NCBI RefSeq assembly: GCF_023276375.1
Contig: NZ_JALLPK010000001.1
Location: 992,001 to 1,056,000, forward strand
Length of the DNA stretch: 64,000 nt
From: Halocatena marina
GTDB lineage: Archaea; Halobacteriota; Halobacteria; Halobacteriales; Haloarculaceae
Direction of reading: 5' to 3'
A program made the translations under genes and the position numbers. This document shows positions 53,034-64,000 of the stretch, one piece after another. The stretch's first letter is position 1, and each line of letters opens with the position of its first letter. The notes under the pieces are model-generated. The model saw only the letters and a program-made list of their open reading frames with translations. It had not been told where the DNA came from and did no database searches.

Positions 53034-54143
53034 ATGAATGGGAGAGTTCCGGTCACAATCGTCAGCGGCTATCTCGGTGCAGGAAAAACAACTCTCGTAA
53101 ACCACATTCTATCGGATCCAAAGGGATTCGACATCGCCATTATTGTCAATGATATGGGTGAAATAAACATAGATGCCGACCTCATCGCGCGCGAAAGTGA
53201 CAAAGAGGGCATCGTTGATCTGTCGAACGGGTGTATCTGCTGTCGGCTGCAGGACGATCTACTATCTGAAGCACAGCATCTCGCTGAGACACGGGAGTTT
53301 GATTACCTGTTGGTCGAGTCATCCGGAATCTCGGAGCCGCTCCCTGTTGCGAAGGTTTTCACGGACGGTGCCGACAGTACTGACGTGGATCCTGAGGATT
53401 GGTTCCAATTGGACACGGTGGTCACCGTTCTCGACACCTACGGATTCTGGAAGGAGTTCGATGCGGGTGAAACGTTACCTACAGACAGTAAGCCGGATGA
53501 CCGTCCAATGGCTAACGTTCTCGTCGAACAGATCGAATTCTGTAATATCATCATTCTCAATAAGTGTGACATGGTTCCCGACGATGTTCTTGATGAGATC
53601 GAAACCGTCGTCGAGATGCTACAGCCACGCGCCGAGCGGATCCGGACCAGCTACTGCGAGGTGGACCCTGCTAGCGTCCTTGGGACCGAACTATTCGACT
53701 TTACGAGAACGAAGCGCTCACAGGGATGGAAACAGCATCTCACAGAAGGGTCACACGATCACAGCGAGGAGAGTCGCGGACAGCCCAGCGCCGCGAGACA
53801 AAGTGCCGCCGAGAGTCATGGTGTCTCATCATTTGTCTATCGAGAGGAGCGGCCATTTGTTCCCGAACACTTAGCAGACTGGCTGCGAGACTGGACTGAT
53901 TCGGTCGTTCGTGCGAAAGGTGTCTGCAACGTGGCTGGTCACGAGGAAGTGATTGGTGTCAGTCAGGCCGGTCCTGCAGTTCAGGCTGGTCCGATTGGTA
54001 AGTGGAGATCTGACGACCGCAAGACTCGCCTCGTGTTTATCGGCCGAGAGATGAACGAAGAGCAGATCCGGAGAGAACTCGATGGCTGCCTGATTGACAC
54101 CGGAGAGACCACGGATCGGTCAGCAGATCCATTCCCGCTGTGA
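53034..54143 (+). CDS. CobW/COG0523 family GTPase (metallochaperone)
   Basis: The 369-residue protein has the P-loop SGYLGAGKTTL (11-21), the metal-binding CxCC motif with Cys67, Cys69 and Cys70 in GCICC, the switch region ESSGISEPLPVA, and NKCD for guanine recognition. A hydrophilic His-containing linker (HDHSEESRG) precedes the C-terminal CobW_C domain (about 265-355). These GTPases deliver zinc or cobalt to client proteins. A tiny CxxC protein is encoded tail-to-tail 4 bp downstream and might be a client or partner. Confidence 0.9.
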   Translation: MNGRVPVTIVSGYLGAGKTTLVNHILSDPKGFDIAIIVNDMGEINIDADLIARESDKEGIVDLSNGCICCRLQDDLLSEAQHLAETREFDYLLVESSGISEPLPVAKVFTDGADSTDVDPEDWFQLDTVVTVLDTYGFWKEFDAGETLPTDSKPDDRPMANVLVEQIEFCNIIILNKCDMVPDDVLDEIETVVEMLQPRAERIRTSYCEVDPASVLGTELFDFTRTKRSQGWKQHLTEGSHDHSEESRGQPSAARQSAAESHGVSSFVYREERPFVPEHLADWLRDWTDSVVRAKGVCNVAGHEEVIGVSQAGPAVQAGPIGKWRSDDRKTRLVFIGREMNEEQIRRELDGCLIDTGETTDRSADPFPL

Positions 54144-56933: not shown

Positions 56934-58055
56934 TCAGTCGGCGGAAGATCCTACTGCAGTGTCGTCCTCGCTGTCACTGGCACCACTCTCGTGTTCGATT
57001 GACTCCACCCTAGCGTACGGGTCGAATCCGTTCGCGCTCTCGTACAAGTGACACGCCACTTCCCGTCTGTCTTCGATGTCTGATTTCTGTTCGAGTGGCG
57101 GCACGACGGTATCACACACATCACCGATGTACTTTTCACAGCGATTTTTGAACCGGCACCCGGTCGGGATGTGGATCGCATCACCAACCTCGCCCTGCAG
57201 TTCGACCCGTGTACGATCCGCTGTCGGGTCAGGAACTGGGACAGCGTCGATGAGCGCACGAGTGTAGGGATGCTTTGGCTCCGTGAGTATCTCCTCGATC
57301 GGTCCTTGTTCGACAATCTTTCCCATGTACATGATCGCGAGCCGATCACACATATGACGGAGGAGCGAAAGGTCGTGACTGATGTAGACGACTGACAGAC
57401 CGAATTCTTCAGTCATTCGCTCTAGCAAGGAGAGGACCCCTGCTCGGAGACTCACATCAAGCATCGACACGGGTTCGTCTGCTACGATGAAGTCGGGATC
57501 GATGACCAACGCTCGGGCAATGGCGAGGCGCTGGCGCTGCCCGCCCGAGAGTTCGTGTGGATATCGATCAAAGTATGAGTCCGCTGGTACCAGCTCTGCG
57601 AACTCCAAGGCTCGCCGAACGCGTGCTCGTTGATTAGAGATACCATGAATGCGAAGCGGCTCGACCACGGTGTCGTACACCGTCATCCGGGGATTTAGAC
57701 TCTCGAACGGATCTTGAAAGATCATCTGCGCATTCTGTCTGAAATACTGTAGATCCTTGGAAGACGATCCATTCCCATTGGTGATCTCTCTGCCGTCGTA
57801 GTAGATACTGCCACCAGTCGGTTCGTACAGCTTCGTCAGGCACATCCCGGTCGTCGTCTTACCGCACCCGGACTCACCGGCAATACCGAATGTCTCCCCT
57901 TCTCGGAGTTCGAAGCTGACACCATCGATCGCGTGAACCACATCTTCTTTTTCACCCCGGATGCTGTTCAGAAAACTATTCACGAGACCACTTCGAACTG
58001 GGAAGTGCTTTTCGAGCCCTTCTACGCGAACGAGAGGGTCAGTATCATCACTCAT
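56934..58055 (-). CDS. dppF: Oligopeptide ABC transporter ATP-binding protein (DppF/OppF type)
   Basis: From ATG 58055 the 373-residue protein has Walker A GESGCGKTTTG, the LSGGQRQRLAIARAL signature, Walker B DFIVADEP, switch HDLSLLRHMC, and the OppD/F C-terminal extension with cysteines (PTGCRFKNRCEKYIGDVCD) that bind an iron-sulphur cluster in related proteins. It hydrolyses ATP to drive import. Its start overlaps the end of the upstream ATPase gene by eight bases, so they are coupled. The frame extends further upstream but without homology. Confidence 0.92.
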   Translation of the reverse strand: MSDDTDPLVRVEGLEKHFPVRSGLVNSFLNSIRGEKEDVVHAIDGVSFELREGETFGIAGESGCGKTTTGMCLTKLYEPTGGSIYYDGREITNGNGSSSKDLQYFRQNAQMIFQDPFESLNPRMTVYDTVVEPLRIHGISNQRARVRRALEFAELVPADSYFDRYPHELSGGQRQRLAIARALVIDPDFIVADEPVSMLDVSLRAGVLSLLERMTEEFGLSVVYISHDLSLLRHMCDRLAIMYMGKIVEQGPIEEILTEPKHPYTRALIDAVPVPDPTADRTRVELQGEVGDAIHIPTGCRFKNRCEKYIGDVCDTVVPPLEQKSDIEDRREVACHLYESANGFDPYARVESIEHESGASDSEDDTAVGSSAD

Positions 58056-59076
58056 TGGCTCCCTCCGCCACGTTCTGCCACGTTCGTGCCTTATCGGAAA
58101 CCGGGCGTAGCTCCGAGTCGATTCGGTCTGTGTGATGACACCTCGAACTGAGACCACCGTGTTCACGAATGGGCGGCACTGTCTCCCGACACACGTCGGT
58201 CGCCAGCGGACACCGTTCTGCGAACCGACAGCCACTCGGTGGGTTACTCAGATCTGGTGGATGCCCACCGATGCTCACGAGATCCTGCTCCGATCGACGG
58301 ATGTCCGGAAACGCACTTTTCAATCCGAGAGTGTACGGATGGTACGGCTTGCCGAAAATGTCCGATGCAGGCCCCTCCTCGGCGATTTCACCAGCGTACA
58401 TGACAACGATACGATCGCAGGTTTCTGCGACGACAGCGACATCGTGGGTGATGACCATCATCGCGGTGTCGCTCTCGCGTTGAATTTCGTTGACCCGTTT
58501 CAGAATCTGATCTTGCATGATGACATCGAGCGCCGTCGTCGGTTCGTCTGCGAGGATAAGCGATGGTTCGAGGACAAGTGACATTGCGATCATCGCGCGT
58601 TGTCGCATCCCACCAGAAAACTGGTGAGGGTAGTCCGTCTGGCGCTCACGGTCGAGACCGACGAGATCGAAGGCCTCATCGATTTTCTGCTGGCTCTCTG
58701 TCCGCCCCATCTTCGGGTAGTGGGCGTCGATCGCCTCCTGAATCTGTTCGCGGATGGTGTAGACCGGATCGAGGGCATTCATCGCTGACTGTGCGATGAG
58801 GGAGATCTCGTCCCACCGAAGCTCGCGCTGACGCCGCTCCGACATCGCAGTAAGAGTGTCGCCGTCGAACCGAACAGTCCCATCGTTTACGTATCCATTG
58901 CGCGGGAGAATTCCGATGAGTGCCTTCGCAAGCGTACTCTTTCCACAGCCGGATTCACCGACGATACCGACGGTTTCTCCGGCGTCGATGTCGAAGCTAA
59001 CGCCATCAACCGCCTTGATTGGGCCGTCTTCACTCTCATAATACACTTCGAGATCTTCGATTTCGAGAAGGGCCAC
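58048..59076 (-). CDS. dppD: Oligopeptide ABC transporter ATP-binding protein (DppD/OppD type)
   Basis: The 342-residue protein has Walker A GESGCGKSTLAK, signature FSGGMRQRAMIAMSLV, Walker B LILADEPTTALD, switch HDVAVVAETC and the C-terminal OppD/F cysteine motif PSGCRFAERCPLATDVC. With the DppF subunit it forms the ATPase pair of the importer. It follows the DppC permease gene with a 60-bp gap. Confidence 0.92.
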   Translation of the reverse strand: MALLEIEDLEVYYESEDGPIKAVDGVSFDIDAGETVGIVGESGCGKSTLAKALIGILPRNGYVNDGTVRFDGDTLTAMSERRQRELRWDEISLIAQSAMNALDPVYTIREQIQEAIDAHYPKMGRTESQQKIDEAFDLVGLDRERQTDYPHQFSGGMRQRAMIAMSLVLEPSLILADEPTTALDVIMQDQILKRVNEIQRESDTAMMVITHDVAVVAETCDRIVVMYAGEIAEEGPASDIFGKPYHPYTLGLKSAFPDIRRSEQDLVSIGGHPPDLSNPPSGCRFAERCPLATDVCRETVPPIREHGGLSSRCHHTDRIDSELRPVSDKARTWQNVAEGANE

Positions 59077-59136: not shown

Positions 59137-60126
59137 TCATCTTTGTATCTGTAGTTCTGGATTGACGATCTCTTCGTAGCCACGACCGATGAGAAAGCCA
59201 CTGATGACTACGAGCGCGATGCAGATCCCTGGTGGTACGAACCACCACCATGCGCCTTCGGTCATTGCGCTGTAGACCCGAGCGCTCTGGAGCATCACGC
59301 CCCACGAGACGCTACTCGGATCACCGAGACCGAGAAACGACACTCCTGCTTCGGTCAGTATCGCCCACGCGATGGCGAACGCGCCGTAGAGAAACGCCAT
59401 CGGGAGAACGTTTGGTGCGATGTGTCGTGAGATGATTCGCCAGTTGCTCGCACCGGACACCTTTGCAGCCTTGACGAACGAGCGCTCGCGCAACGATAGC
59501 ACGAGCGCCCGAATAACACGCGCTGATGTCCGCCACTGGAGGAGGACGAACGCGAAGATGATGTTTTCAAGTCCTGGCCCGAGAACCGTCACGAGCACGA
59601 TGACCGTCGGGAGAAGCGGGAGACCGTAGACGAAATCAACGAGACGCATGAGGATGTCATCAACGTAGCCACCGTAGTATCCCGCCGTGAGACCAACGAG
59701 CGTTCCGAGACCGACCGTCATCAACGCAGCGACAATCCCGACAACGAGAGCAGGACGTGCGCCGTACACCAACTGACTGAAGATATCGTATCCCTGTGCG
59801 GTTGTTCCGAGGAGGAAGCTTCCATCGCCGCCGAGGAACGTCGGTTTGATCCACTTTGCGATGAGCGCACCGCCGGTGAACACCCGTTCGGTTGGTGGAT
59901 GAGGGGCAATATACGGTGCAGCGAGTGCAACGAAGCCGAAAAAGGCGAGTGTGAGCATCGCGAGCAAGACCAACGAATCGTCGATCAGCATTCGGAACTG
60001 CTCTGTGATGGTCTCGCGCCACAGTCGGAGATTCCGTCGCCACGCACTGAACTGTTCGGGGTCGTCCTCTTCTCCTTCAATGTCTGCGAAGATCGACCGA
60101 TCTTGTTCTTGGCTCATCTCAGTCAT
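59137..60126 (-). CDS. dppC: Oligopeptide ABC transporter permease (DppC type)
   Basis: The 329-residue protein has six or so membrane segments and the ABC permease EAA-loop: VKAAKVSGASNWRIISRHIAPNVLP near residue 210. GTTAQGYDIFSQLVYGARPAL is the typical DppC N-terminal motif after the first helix. It overlaps the DppB gene by eight bases at its start. It forms the channel together with DppB. Confidence 0.92.
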   Translation of the reverse strand: MTEMSQEQDRSIFADIEGEEDDPEQFSAWRRNLRLWRETITEQFRMLIDDSLVLLAMLTLAFFGFVALAAPYIAPHPPTERVFTGGALIAKWIKPTFLGGDGSFLLGTTAQGYDIFSQLVYGARPALVVGIVAALMTVGLGTLVGLTAGYYGGYVDDILMRLVDFVYGLPLLPTVIVLVTVLGPGLENIIFAFVLLQWRTSARVIRALVLSLRERSFVKAAKVSGASNWRIISRHIAPNVLPMAFLYGAFAIAWAILTEAGVSFLGLGDPSSVSWGVMLQSARVYSAMTEGAWWWFVPPGICIALVVISGFLIGRGYEEIVNPELQIQR

Positions 60127-61096
60127 AGGTCACCCGTGGATCGAGAACGCCGTAGAGGAGATCAGCGACGAAGTTCATCAGGATAACCGACAACGCGAGA
60201 ACGAGAAACGTCCCCTGCGCAACCGGATAGTCTCGCCTGAGCACAGCCCGGATCATTTCACGCCCGATTCCCGGCCATCCGAACACCGTCTCGATGAGAA
60301 CGCTCCCACCGACAGCGTAACCGACCGCAATGGCTGCTGCGGTCAGCACAGGGAGAAACGCGTTGCGGGCCGCGTGTTTAAACATGATCGTTCGTTCGGT
60401 CAGGCCTTTTGCTCGACAGATATCGATGAAGTCCTCCGATAGGGTCTCCAGCATGCTGTTTCGCATGATGAGCAGCGGATATCCCATGTAGTAGAACGCA
60501 AGGACGACGACCGGAGCAACGAGGTGATGGAGGAAATCGAGAGAGAACACCATCTCCCAGAACCCGGTCGATCCGGAGCCGAGACTCGTCATCCCACTCA
60601 TTGGAATGATTCCGAGGTTCGTACCGAACACCCAGAGCACAAGAAGCCCAACCCAGAAGCTGGGAACGCTTCGACCGACGAGCGCAGTTACAACAGCGGA
60701 TTTCTCGAATCGGCTGCCCCGATACCACCCGGTGAACACGCCGAGCGTGATGCCGATAAAATAGGCGACGATAAACGCAGTCAACATCAGGACGAGTGTA
60801 TTCGGGAGATACGTTATGAGCACGTCGACGACTTGTTCGTTCGTTTTGAACGAGCGACCGAGATCGAGCGTCAGAAGGTTTTCGATGTAACGGAGATACT
60901 GCACCCACAGCGGATCGTTCAGTCCATAGCTTTCGACGAGCTGTTGTCTTACCTCCGGTGTCATTCCGGGCGAGATGACGTATGCCGTCGGATTTCCGGG
61001 CATGAGCCGAAACAGCATGAACAACGCGGTCGCGACGGCCCAGAGCGTCACACCCAACTGTAGAGCACGTCTGATGAAGAAATCTGATTTTCCCAT
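60119..61096 (-). CDS. dppB: Oligopeptide ABC transporter permease (DppB type)
   Basis: The 325-residue protein has six membrane segments with the DppB N-terminus RRALQLGVTLWAVATALFMLFRLMPGNP and the permease loop DFIDICRAKGLTERTIMFKHAARNAFLP. It pairs with DppC. It lies 21 bp after the binding-protein gene and overlaps the next gene by eight bases, showing a tight operon. Confidence 0.93.
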   Translation of the reverse strand: MGKSDFFIRRALQLGVTLWAVATALFMLFRLMPGNPTAYVISPGMTPEVRQQLVESYGLNDPLWVQYLRYIENLLTLDLGRSFKTNEQVVDVLITYLPNTLVLMLTAFIVAYFIGITLGVFTGWYRGSRFEKSAVVTALVGRSVPSFWVGLLVLWVFGTNLGIIPMSGMTSLGSGSTGFWEMVFSLDFLHHLVAPVVVLAFYYMGYPLLIMRNSMLETLSEDFIDICRAKGLTERTIMFKHAARNAFLPVLTAAAIAVGYAVGGSVLIETVFGWPGIGREMIRAVLRRDYPVAQGTFLVLALSVILMNFVADLLYGVLDPRVTYD

Positions 61097-61117: not shown

Positions 61118-62785
61118 CTACTTGGACGACTGTTCGGGGAAGTGAACGGTTCCGTCGTTGTCGATGACGTATCCAGCATCTTCGAGGCGTTTCTTACCGG
61201 CCTCCACGCCGTTTTGTTTCTGATATTTCTTCACGTCCGGATTGCTGTACTTACCGAACGATTCACCGATGAGATTCCAGCCTTCTTTAGCGAATCCGTA
61301 CAGAATTTGCTTGTTGATGGCCGCCTTCGGAATCGCGTGGACAGCTGCCTGTCGGACCGCTCTGTCGTCGAGGCCCTTCTTTCGGAGATTTTGGCTAAAG
61401 TGCCACCATCCATCACCGGGCGTCGATTGGACGCCGATGTTACTCTTGCCCTTGTTATCTTTGAGCTGTTTGCCGATACGGGTGTATGGCAGGTAGTTTA
61501 GCTTCCCTTTTTTCAGGAGTGACCAAACTGTCGAACTTTCGGGGATGATGCGCCAAATCCGACGGTTGAATTTGACCGGTCGCCAGTGATCGCCGTACTT
61601 CTTCAGACTCAGCTCACTGCCTTTGTCCCAGTAATCAAACTGGAGCGGGCCACTTCCGACTGGCTTTTTGACCGATGCCTTCGCTGGATTGCTTCGGCTG
61701 TTCCACTTGTGCTTTGGCAGGATCGGAATCTGGTTGGAAAACAACTTGTGGACCGGTCCGATTGGATCTTTGAACGTCACCGTAATCCACTGACCATCTA
61801 CCGATACTGAGTCATATAGCTCCCACTGTGTGGAATAGAGTGGAATCTTATTCTTCTTGACGTAATCGAGGGTGAACTTCACGTCCTCGGGCGTGACGGC
61901 TTCACCGTCGTGCCACTTGTGGTCCTCCCGGAGCTTGTACTTGACCGTCGTATCGTCCGGGCGCTCCCATTTGGTCGCCAGACTGAGCTTCGGATCGGCT
62001 TCTAACTTCGAGTTGATGCGAACGAGCTTATCGTACAGCATCTCGAACTGGTGAATGAGCTTCGTCTCATTCTTGTAACCGAGGACGTTCATCGTCCCAA
62101 GTGTCTCAGCCCACGAGCCTCGTAGCTCCTTTTTGTCGTTTTTCACCTCCACGTTCGTCATCGGCTCGAAATGATAGTAGCCGACGATGTGGTCGGTCCA
62201 CCCACTGACCTGATTGTTGTTGTACGCCACGATGTTGGGCATCTGGACGATGGGGTGCATCGGAACGTCTTTGCCGAGTGTCGTCTGGATATCGTGGAGC
62301 ATCTGGATCCGCTTTTGCTCGTCTTTTTCCTGTAGCTGCTCCATCAACGTTGGATCGAGATCCTTGTTCGCGTAGCCAGTGAAATTTCCTTGATCGGCCG
62401 TAACGTTCGAGGAGTGGAACTGCTCGGGCATCCGGACGCCCGGATCGATACCGAGCCCGCGAGACCAGGTGGCGAATGAAAAGTCGTGCTCCTGAGTGAT
62501 CTTCGTGTACAGCGTCCCCCATTCGAACACCTGTACTTTCACATTGAGGCCCAGATTGTTGAGTTGTTCACCGACGAGATTGATCGCGTCGTGGCGAGCA
62601 GGGTTGTAATTGGCAGGATTATTCAGATACTTGTACTGTGGAAGCTCACTCCCCGCGTTTTCTGCACCTCCGCTACTACTTTCTAAACTACTGCATCCAG
62701 CGAGACTCGCCAATCCACCAAGCCCAGTTGCTGTGGTAAGCTTTAAAAATTCACGTCTATCAACATCATTGTTATCAATTAGCAT
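61118..62785 (-). CDS. dppA: Tat lipoprotein substrate-binding protein of the peptide transporter, circularly permuted
   Basis: The 555-residue protein has a Tat signal DRREFLKLTTAT and the lipobox LAGC with Cys31. Segments of an SBP_bac_5 protein are present, but their order is changed. Residues 50-205 (QYKYLNNPANYNPARHDAINL, FEWGTLYTKI, FATWSRGLG, GNFTGYANKDLDP) match the C-terminal part of ordinary DppA proteins. Residues 228-555 (LGTMNVLGY, YDKLVRINS, WHDGEAVTPEDVKF, PVGSGPLQFDYW, RAVRQAAVHAI, GKKRLEDAGY) match the N-terminal and middle part. Thus the fold appears circularly permuted, with the new ends inside the domain. It binds extracellular peptides; upstream is a TldD-like peptidase gene. 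Confidence 0.88.
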   Translation of the reverse strand: MLIDNNDVDRREFLKLTTATGLGGLASLAGCSSLESSSGGAENAGSELPQYKYLNNPANYNPARHDAINLVGEQLNNLGLNVKVQVFEWGTLYTKITQEHDFSFATWSRGLGIDPGVRMPEQFHSSNVTADQGNFTGYANKDLDPTLMEQLQEKDEQKRIQMLHDIQTTLGKDVPMHPIVQMPNIVAYNNNQVSGWTDHIVGYYHFEPMTNVEVKNDKKELRGSWAETLGTMNVLGYKNETKLIHQFEMLYDKLVRINSKLEADPKLSLATKWERPDDTTVKYKLREDHKWHDGEAVTPEDVKFTLDYVKKNKIPLYSTQWELYDSVSVDGQWITVTFKDPIGPVHKLFSNQIPILPKHKWNSRSNPAKASVKKPVGSGPLQFDYWDKGSELSLKKYGDHWRPVKFNRRIWRIIPESSTVWSLLKKGKLNYLPYTRIGKQLKDNKGKSNIGVQSTPGDGWWHFSQNLRKKGLDDRAVRQAAVHAIPKAAINKQILYGFAKEGWNLIGESFGKYSNPDVKKYQKQNGVEAGKKRLEDAGYVIDNDGTVHFPEQSSK

Positions 62786-62896: not shown

Positions 62897-64000
62897 CTAT
62901 TCCGGGGAAAGACGGGCAGTAAGTCGAATCGCCGGCGCTGTGATTGCGTATGGGACCGTCGAACGATGCTTTGTACACGTACCAGTTACTGTCTCGCGTC
63001 GGCTGCCGAGCATCGAAATGGACTGTATGTCGGACAGAGAGACAATGACAGTCCCATCGGTAAATGGCTGTGCTCGTTCTGCCCCGTCGATTGTATACCC
63101 AATCTGAATCGGGAACGCAAGGGTCTGGTTCGTGGCTTCGTCCGAGAACTCCGAAGGGGTAGTCTCGGCGATATCTTTCGCATACTGAACGCTCGGGGGC
63201 ATCGAGCTCTGGCGCTTTGTCTCTGTTGCATCGTTGAGTAGCCGTGCTGACTCAACCGACTCTATCCGCACCGCTGCTCCCGTACGGAGCGACGTGCGTG
63301 ATGTGTCTCCCGCTGTAACGGAGAGGTGCCGAGAGTGAATCCGCGGCGGACGTTCGTATCCGAGACTCGGGACAACCGTTCCCGCCGGGACCGTCTCCTC
63401 CTCAATAGCCGACGCGGTGTCGTGGAGATGGTTCCGAACGATTCCTTCAGACACGAGCGTTACAGGGGTTGTCGTTCTCCCTTCAGCGTCGAACGCCCGC
63501 GCTGTCCACGAGCCAGCACAGACACCGTCTTCGATCTGAAGCGAACGCGGTCCGATTCGGTCACCGACTGCGAACGGACTCGACCCGAAATACTTCATAT
63601 CGATCTCCAGATAATGGCAAACTTCGTGGAATAGTTCTGCTGCAGCACGCGGACCGAACACGATTTCAGTCGGACTATCGATGTCGGGCGGCGTTCGAAG
63701 ACATCTTGCCTCGCCATTTCTTCGCGCGTGTGATGCCACTTCCTCAAACTGTTTTTCGAGCGTATCGAGAAACGACATTCCGGCTGTGCTCCCGAAATGG
63801 CGCTGCATCTTCGGCGCGTTAGTCGGGTCAACAACTATCTCTACCGACGCGCGCTCAAGCGTCGAGCGGACGGTCGTTCCAGTCGTCGTCAGCAACGCCG
63901 ATTGAATGCGAGTATCGTGATACGATGCCCGTGCTCGTTCGAGGGAGAGACCGTCCATTGCATCTTCGAACGCCGATTGAACGATCTCGAGCTTCTCACT
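62897..64000 (-). CDS. TldD/PmbA family metallopeptidase, 5' end outside window
   Basis: At least 367 residues are visible, since the frame stays open to base 64000 (SEKLEIVQSAFEDAM precedes the first internal ATG). It resembles TldD: GPRAAAELFHEVCHYLEID in the position of the HEAVGHGLEGD zinc motif, SSPFAVGDRIGPRSLQIEDG, ARAFDAEGRTTTPVTLVSEG, and near the end GTCTKHRSTVPYAITAPAIRL with the conserved Cys. The zinc motif seems one residue shorter than usual. TldD-type enzymes cleave unfolded peptides. It lies 111 bp upstream of the dipeptide-transporter operon in the same direction. Confidence 0.8.
   Translation of the reverse strand, partial: SEKLEIVQSAFEDAMDGLSLERARASYHDTRIQSALLTTTGTTVRSTLERASVEIVVDPTNAPKMQRHFGSTAGMSFLDTLEKQFEEVASHARRNGEARCLRTPPDIDSPTEIVFGPRAAAELFHEVCHYLEIDMKYFGSSPFAVGDRIGPRSLQIEDGVCAGSWTARAFDAEGRTTTPVTLVSEGIVRNHLHDTASAIEEETVPAGTVVPSLGYERPPRIHSRHLSVTAGDTSRTSLRTGAAVRIESVESARLLNDATETKRQSSMPPSVQYAKDIAETTPSEFSDEATNQTLAFPIQIGYTIDGAERAQPFTDGTVIVSLSDIQSISMLGSRRETVTGTCTKHRSTVPYAITAPAIRLTARLSPE

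Follow-up and report, generated by a model that had tools for sequence, protein, structure and literature searches.

A circularly permuted cluster C solute-binding lipoprotein encoded beside a Dpp-type importer in Halocatena marina, with permuted relatives in haloarchaea and Alphaproteobacteria

We analyzed a 64,000-nucleotide stretch of the Halocatena marina genome (the window) and found that the gene at 61118-62785 (minus strand) encoded a family-5 (cluster C) solute-binding protein (SBP) with the segments of its chain in swapped order. It is highly probable that this protein is a working lipid-anchored cluster C SBP that is circularly permuted relative to DppA, OppA, and NikA, that it serves the DppBCDF-type importer encoded downstream, and that the permutation most likely arose a single time.

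The gene, which was located via its open reading frame (ORF) and its Pfam and PDB matches, was intact, started with ATG, and encoded 555 amino acids. Its 5' end (62693-62785, minus strand) specified a sequence that resembled a Tat-type signal, with RR at residues 10 and 11, followed by the lipobox LAGC at residues 28 to 31; the match to the Pfam TAT_signal model was weak and below its cut-off. The initial annotation had placed these elements at a new N-terminus and this held, as they now preceded a block that was once the C-terminal third of the protein. Specifically, residues 49 to 214 (62144-62641, minus strand) corresponded, in matches to SBP_bac_5, DppA, and 5u4o, to the later portion of lobe 2 together with the final lobe-1 segment. 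The native C-terminus was then fused, almost without a linker, to the native mature N-terminus at residues ~208 to 220 (62126-62164, minus strand), based on the DppA and NikA alignments. Residues 215 to 555 (61121-62143, minus strand) formed the N-terminal two-thirds block, which was defined by alignment and by its match to SBP_bac_5 positions 3 to 286 and which ended directly after the EAGY helix with a DxxGxLHfPE tail. The earlier description of residues 228 to 555 as the N-lobe was a loose one: the region did contain lobe 1 minus its last segment, but it also contained the first part of lobe 2.

The swapped order was apparent in both profile and structure comparisons. The PF00496 (SBP_bac_5) profile, which has 368 positions, matched the protein with an E value of 3.3e-57 (194.7 bits; cut-off, 32.4), and the match was divided into two stretches. 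When the two parts were scanned alone, as the initial annotation had suggested, residues 206 to 555 matched profile positions 3 to 286 (E 1.4e-51), and residues 1 to 205 produced a modest match to positions 280 to 363 (E 2.8e-5, below the curated cut-off). Thus, the separate parts matched the profile in the reverse order, and the colinear alignment to SBP_bac_5 that the initial annotation had named as evidence against a permutation did not appear. Similar results were obtained with phmmer searches of the PDB. Residues 247 to 540 and 62 to 207 aligned with residues 72 to 360 and 373 to 516 of 5u4o (i-E values of 2e-20 and 8e-10, respectively), residues 250 to 538 and 60 to 209 aligned with residues 32 to 339 and 357 to 504 of DppA (1dpe), and the 8efz alignment had the same swapped two-block picture. 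A profile built from nine permuted proteins again yielded two blocks in swapped order when it was searched against the PDB, and all of the listed matches in this search for a permuted structure consisted of one block or of two swapped blocks. These two-piece matches to Pfam and PDB members, which were also obtained with NCBIfam, supported the original proposal that a DppA-type SBP had been circularly permuted. The protein and the canonical family had the motifs WHDG, TxEDV, GSGP, and RQA in common. Because the C-terminal segment preceded the N-terminal segment, which is not the canonical order along the chain, the protein is, judged by its sequence, a permuted variant of SBP_bac_5/cluster C and not a standard member.

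The positions of the old and new chain ends could also be mapped. DppA residue 504 (of a 507-residue chain) aligned at residue 209 of the window SBP, and NikA residue 4 aligned at position 219 of the permuted profile; therefore, the native ends were joined with few residues between them, in agreement with the junction that had been proposed near residues 205 to 230. The new ends mapped between DppA residues 339 and 357, which is the loop from the EAGY helix to the next lobe-2 strand and is where the initial annotation had predicted that the chain was opened. In the solved structure of a cluster C protein, N-terminal, middle, and C-terminal segments together build domain I, and a single contiguous stretch makes up lobe 2 (PMC11192437). 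A junction of the native ends is sterically plausible because both termini are in domain I of lobe 1. Based on the homology of both blocks, the window SBP would fold into the usual two-lobed flytrap, and the lipid tether and the new N-terminus would be carried by lobe 2 rather than by lobe 1. An AlphaFold2 prediction that used only four close sequences (the window SBP and three orthologs) had a pLDDT of 36 and a pTM of 0.28.

As a control for segment order, the same two segment profiles were read on canonical members and on relatives of the window SBP. All 13 canonical members (seven from this genome and six from bacterial plasmids) had the N-segment followed by the C-segment. The C-segment preceded the N-segment in about 60 distinct proteins related to the window SBP. 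In comparisons with two Haladaptatus orthologs, in which synonymous sites were near saturation, dN/dS was about 0.03 to 0.08 in both blocks and in the fusion region. Both blocks and the fusion of the window SBP were under purifying selection.

The genes around the SBP gene were those of a Dpp-type importer. The SBP gene was separated by 21 bp from a codirectional gene for a DppB-type permease (60119-61096; ORF with BPD_transp_1 and BPD_transp_1_N matches), which was followed by genes for a DppC-type permease (59137-60126) and a DppD-type ATPase (58048-59076), both of which were recognized as ORFs and were conserved beside permuted SBPs. The next gene (56934-58055) encoded a DppF-type ATPase and was assigned a start at an internal ATG of a mechanical ORF that began at 58235. 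All four genes were on the minus strand. Hence the protein had both an export signal with a lipobox (RR and LAGC) and downstream permeases and ATPases, which are the marks of an importer's SBP partner. Upstream of the SBP gene and in the same direction, a TldD/PmbA-type metallopeptidase gene (62897-64000, minus strand; PmbA_TldD_3rd, E 2e-18) ran past the end of the window and encoded 495 amino acids in all (L125:8898-10385), and a divergent M28-type peptidase gene was located beyond it.

This arrangement was common beside permuted SBPs. Among 31 loci examined, two of which (L104 and L122) were the same place counted twice, 27 had genes of the two permease types and of one or more ATPase types near the permuted SBP; in L112, L114, L115, and L124, which carried divergent permuted members, the full ABC set was not recognized nearby with the small label set that was used. 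M28 peptidase genes were located beside many archaeal and bacterial permuted SBPs, and the recurrent neighbors also included genes for TldD, creatininase, M20 peptidase, Asp/Glu racemase, and hydantoinase B/oxoprolinase. The simplest reading of the locus is uptake of a peptide or peptide-like amide that is then hydrolyzed: the SBP would capture the solute outside the cell and deliver it to the transporter of the DppBCDF type, and the imported cargo would then be degraded by the neighboring TldD and M28 peptidases.

The ligand itself is probably not an ordinary dipeptide that is bound in the way DppA binds it, because the charged residues that anchor the dipeptide in DppA were not conserved. 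In DppA, the dipeptide ends are held by R383 and D436 of the precursor, which are R355 and D408 of the mature protein (PMC12136057). D408 aligned to Gly110 of the window SBP, and R355, which is just before the start of the aligned block, would fall at about Ala58. The protein also failed the DppA equivalog model NF043070 (81.1 bits, relative to a cut-off of 1005), and no NCBIfam model reached its cut-off. A loop of the G-x-P-x-R-x-DP type was observed in many permuted members of both domains near the place that is occupied by the peptide-amine Asp in canonical binders (residues ~105 to 118 of the window SBP); the subclade of the window SBP had a shorter loop without this motif.

These features are compatible with a broader hypothesis that we consider possible, though we favor it less than the importer assignment. 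In this hypothesis, one ancient permutation founded an undescribed cluster C subclass in haloarchaea and Alphaproteobacteria, the tether moved from lobe 1 to lobe 2, the pocket for the ligand ends was rebuilt, and the substrates may be end-capped or cyclic peptide-like compounds (pyroglutamyl, hydantoin, or D-amino-acid compounds). A rebuilt pocket would fit with the loss of the DppA Asp and Arg anchors and with the Arg-containing loop nearby in many members, and substrates of this type would fit with the peptidase, racemase, creatininase, and hydantoinase/oxoprolinase-type neighbors.

Permuted SBPs were found well beyond H. marina, across haloarchaea and in some bacteria of soil and sea. Of 195 genomes sampled from the order, 68 contained matches to the permuted profile with E values of ≤1e-60, a lower bound since few candidates were scored per genome. 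Nearly all of these rows were full-length; G222 was truncated and G283 was split, and the block order was checked in every fetched locus except the split one. The split ortholog (G283:C31:109569-111226) was divided between two frames close to the fusion point (profile positions 2 to 229 and 225 to 552), which could mean that the frame shifted recently, that a sequencing error is present, or that the protein is made as two chains. When more candidates were scored per genome, 19 of the 28 genomes in one family carried one to six permuted members, and among 295 genomes of the phylum, every match with an E value of ≤1e-70 was within the order of the window genome. This genome contained two permuted members beside more than 20 canonical ones. 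The second permuted protein has 637 amino acids (C1:1259812-1261632; L008:598-2508) and its own ABC genes near it; it was very different from the window SBP, and a CaiB-like CoA-transferase ORF, identified by eye, overlapped its gene or was just downstream.

A search of plasmids identified the permuted form in haloarchaea and in Nitratireductor, Microvirga, Neorhizobium, Ketogulonicigenium, Roseomonas, and Maritalea; this bacterial range was read from plasmids, and the order was checked in L062, L063, L066, L103, and L105. A scan of viral contigs revealed no further relatives. By eye, the alphaproteobacterial proteins L062, L063, L066, and L103 had plain signal peptides without a lipobox, and the archaeal proteins were Tat lipoproteins. 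The initial annotation had suggested a lineage-specific rearrangement; the rearrangement was confirmed, but its proposed range was too narrow because the same cut site was present across the haloarchaeal order and in permuted SBPs of several alphaproteobacterial families. The window SBP itself belonged to this permuted cluster C clade, since it had a colinear full-length match to the permuted profile and the same cut site.

To examine the origin of the permuted form, trees were built from 41 permuted and 13 canonical proteins after the order was restored in silico; the canonical sample was thus a small one. The full tree required two changes of state, and the only misfit was the canonical L013, which grouped weakly inside the permuted set (74/81) and had a terminal branch 2.8 changes per column long. 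When the two longest canonical rows (L013 and L011) were left out, the permuted set formed one side of a 100/99.8 branch. A tree of the N-block core with all rows again required two changes. The cut site and the DxxGxLHfPE tail were identical in archaeal and bacterial permuted members, and the G-x-P-x-R-x-DP-type loop was present in 26 of 60 permuted rows, both archaeal and bacterial, but in only one of 13 canonical rows, where it was at a different place. Because of the 100/99.8 branch and the common cut site, tail, and loop motif, the sequences favor a single origin, which is not proven because the canonical sample was small. The alphaproteobacterial L062, L105, L063, and L103 branched with the haloarchaeal L079 at 100/99, and this grouping suggests that the permuted SBP gene was transferred between domains. 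Within the haloarchaea, the window genome was in family f1 and the Haladaptatus-type genomes whose orthologs were 80% identical were in f17; this difference is a hint that the locus may have moved laterally. The permuted gene thus most likely arose once and would then have spread between haloarchaea and Alphaproteobacteria.

Several other explanations of the locus were considered. Apart from the oddity of the layout, nothing indicated that pieces of neighboring SBP genes had been joined by an assembly or sequencing artefact, and an artefact was excluded: separately sequenced genomes contained orthologs with the same layout that were 81, 80, and 65% identical, dozens more were found in other genera and in bacteria, dN/dS was low across the fusion, and the operon was conserved. 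It also seems very unlikely that the protein no longer imports and is instead a receptor or a degraded copy. The absence of both dipeptide-binding charges and the permuted members that lack nearby ABC genes would fit such a loss, but the gene is intact, is 21 bp upstream of a permease gene, and is under purifying selection, and the operon has been kept in archaea and bacteria.

As for how the order changed, repeated independent permutations at the same loop would account for the position of L013 in the fuller tree and for the two changes in the N-block core tree. We regard such repeats as improbable given the long L013 branch, the split obtained without L013 and L011, and the cut site, tail, and loop distribution described above. 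The simplest route to a single permutation would be a tandem duplication and fusion followed by loss of the outer pieces; no intermediate in the form of a duplicated or fused canonical gene was found, and the long open frames in some matches were unproven as such. A chimera of two family-5 paralogs, with the C-type and N-type blocks taken from different genes, would produce an identical block order. This origin is unlikely in our assessment, and its outcome would still be a permuted fold. No close canonical parent was found for either block (the best bacterial canonical N-block matches were ~25 to 30% identical), so the duplication and chimera routes were indistinguishable here, and the near-zero linker and clean cut fit either one.

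The window SBP can be compared with several known proteins. The canonical cluster C/SBP_bac_5 proteins (PF00496; DppA, OppA, AppA, NikA, and GsiB) are homologous to it over nearly the full length and are encoded in the same type of operon (Dpp), but in the window SBP the blocks are swapped and the lipid anchor is before the lobe-2 block. The pneumococcal oligopeptide-binding proteins AliD and AmiA (PMC11192437), the source of the domain map used here, are also cluster C lipoproteins; in contrast to the window SBP, they have the canonical order and a conserved Asp that holds the amine of the peptide. TpMglB-2 (Tp0684) of Treponema pallidum is a natural permuted importer SBP that was classified as Type Ic/Cluster Bc and has homologs in other treponemes and in Gram-positive bacteria (PMC4990184). 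Like the window SBP, TpMglB-2 is a membrane-tethered, circularly permuted SBP of an ABC importer, and it was shown to bind ligand and close. However, it is a sugar-binding cluster B protein with a different cut site and came from an unrelated event, and the listed PDB and Pfam matches of the window SBP were all of the family-5/cluster C type, which places it outside Cluster Bc.

In the open-access papers that were searched, we found no description of permuted DppA/OppA-type (cluster C) proteins; the only permuted case was TpMglB-2, which is of the other class. The permuted branch of cluster C is apparently old, widespread, and undescribed. Family-5 SBPs are among the commonest and best-studied transport proteins, and a large rearranged subclass seems to have been overlooked because the annotation reads just "ABC transporter substrate-binding protein." The proteins described here add a second example of a permuted importer SBP, independent of TpMglB-2, and provide a natural test of whether the positions of chain ends and tether matter for docking of the flytrap on the permease, and a natural guide for permuting SBPs into sensors. 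The tethering explanation that was offered for TpMglB-2 cannot fully account for these proteins, because the signals of the alphaproteobacterial members are of the Sec type and lack a lipobox.

A few other features of these loci were observed. In L114 (G224) and L115 (G196), two divergent permuted SBP genes were codirectional and near each other; within ~7 kb, neither an ABC permease nor an ABC ATPase was recognized, and Pfam identified no ABC component among the ORFs tried. In Halomarina sp. BND7, an inserted transposase gene (L064:9556-10833) separated the permease genes of the permuted operon from its ATPase genes. The window also contained a CobW/G3E-type GTPase-like ORF (53034-54143, plus strand; GYLGAGKTT and CICC by eye), which probably encodes a metal chaperone.
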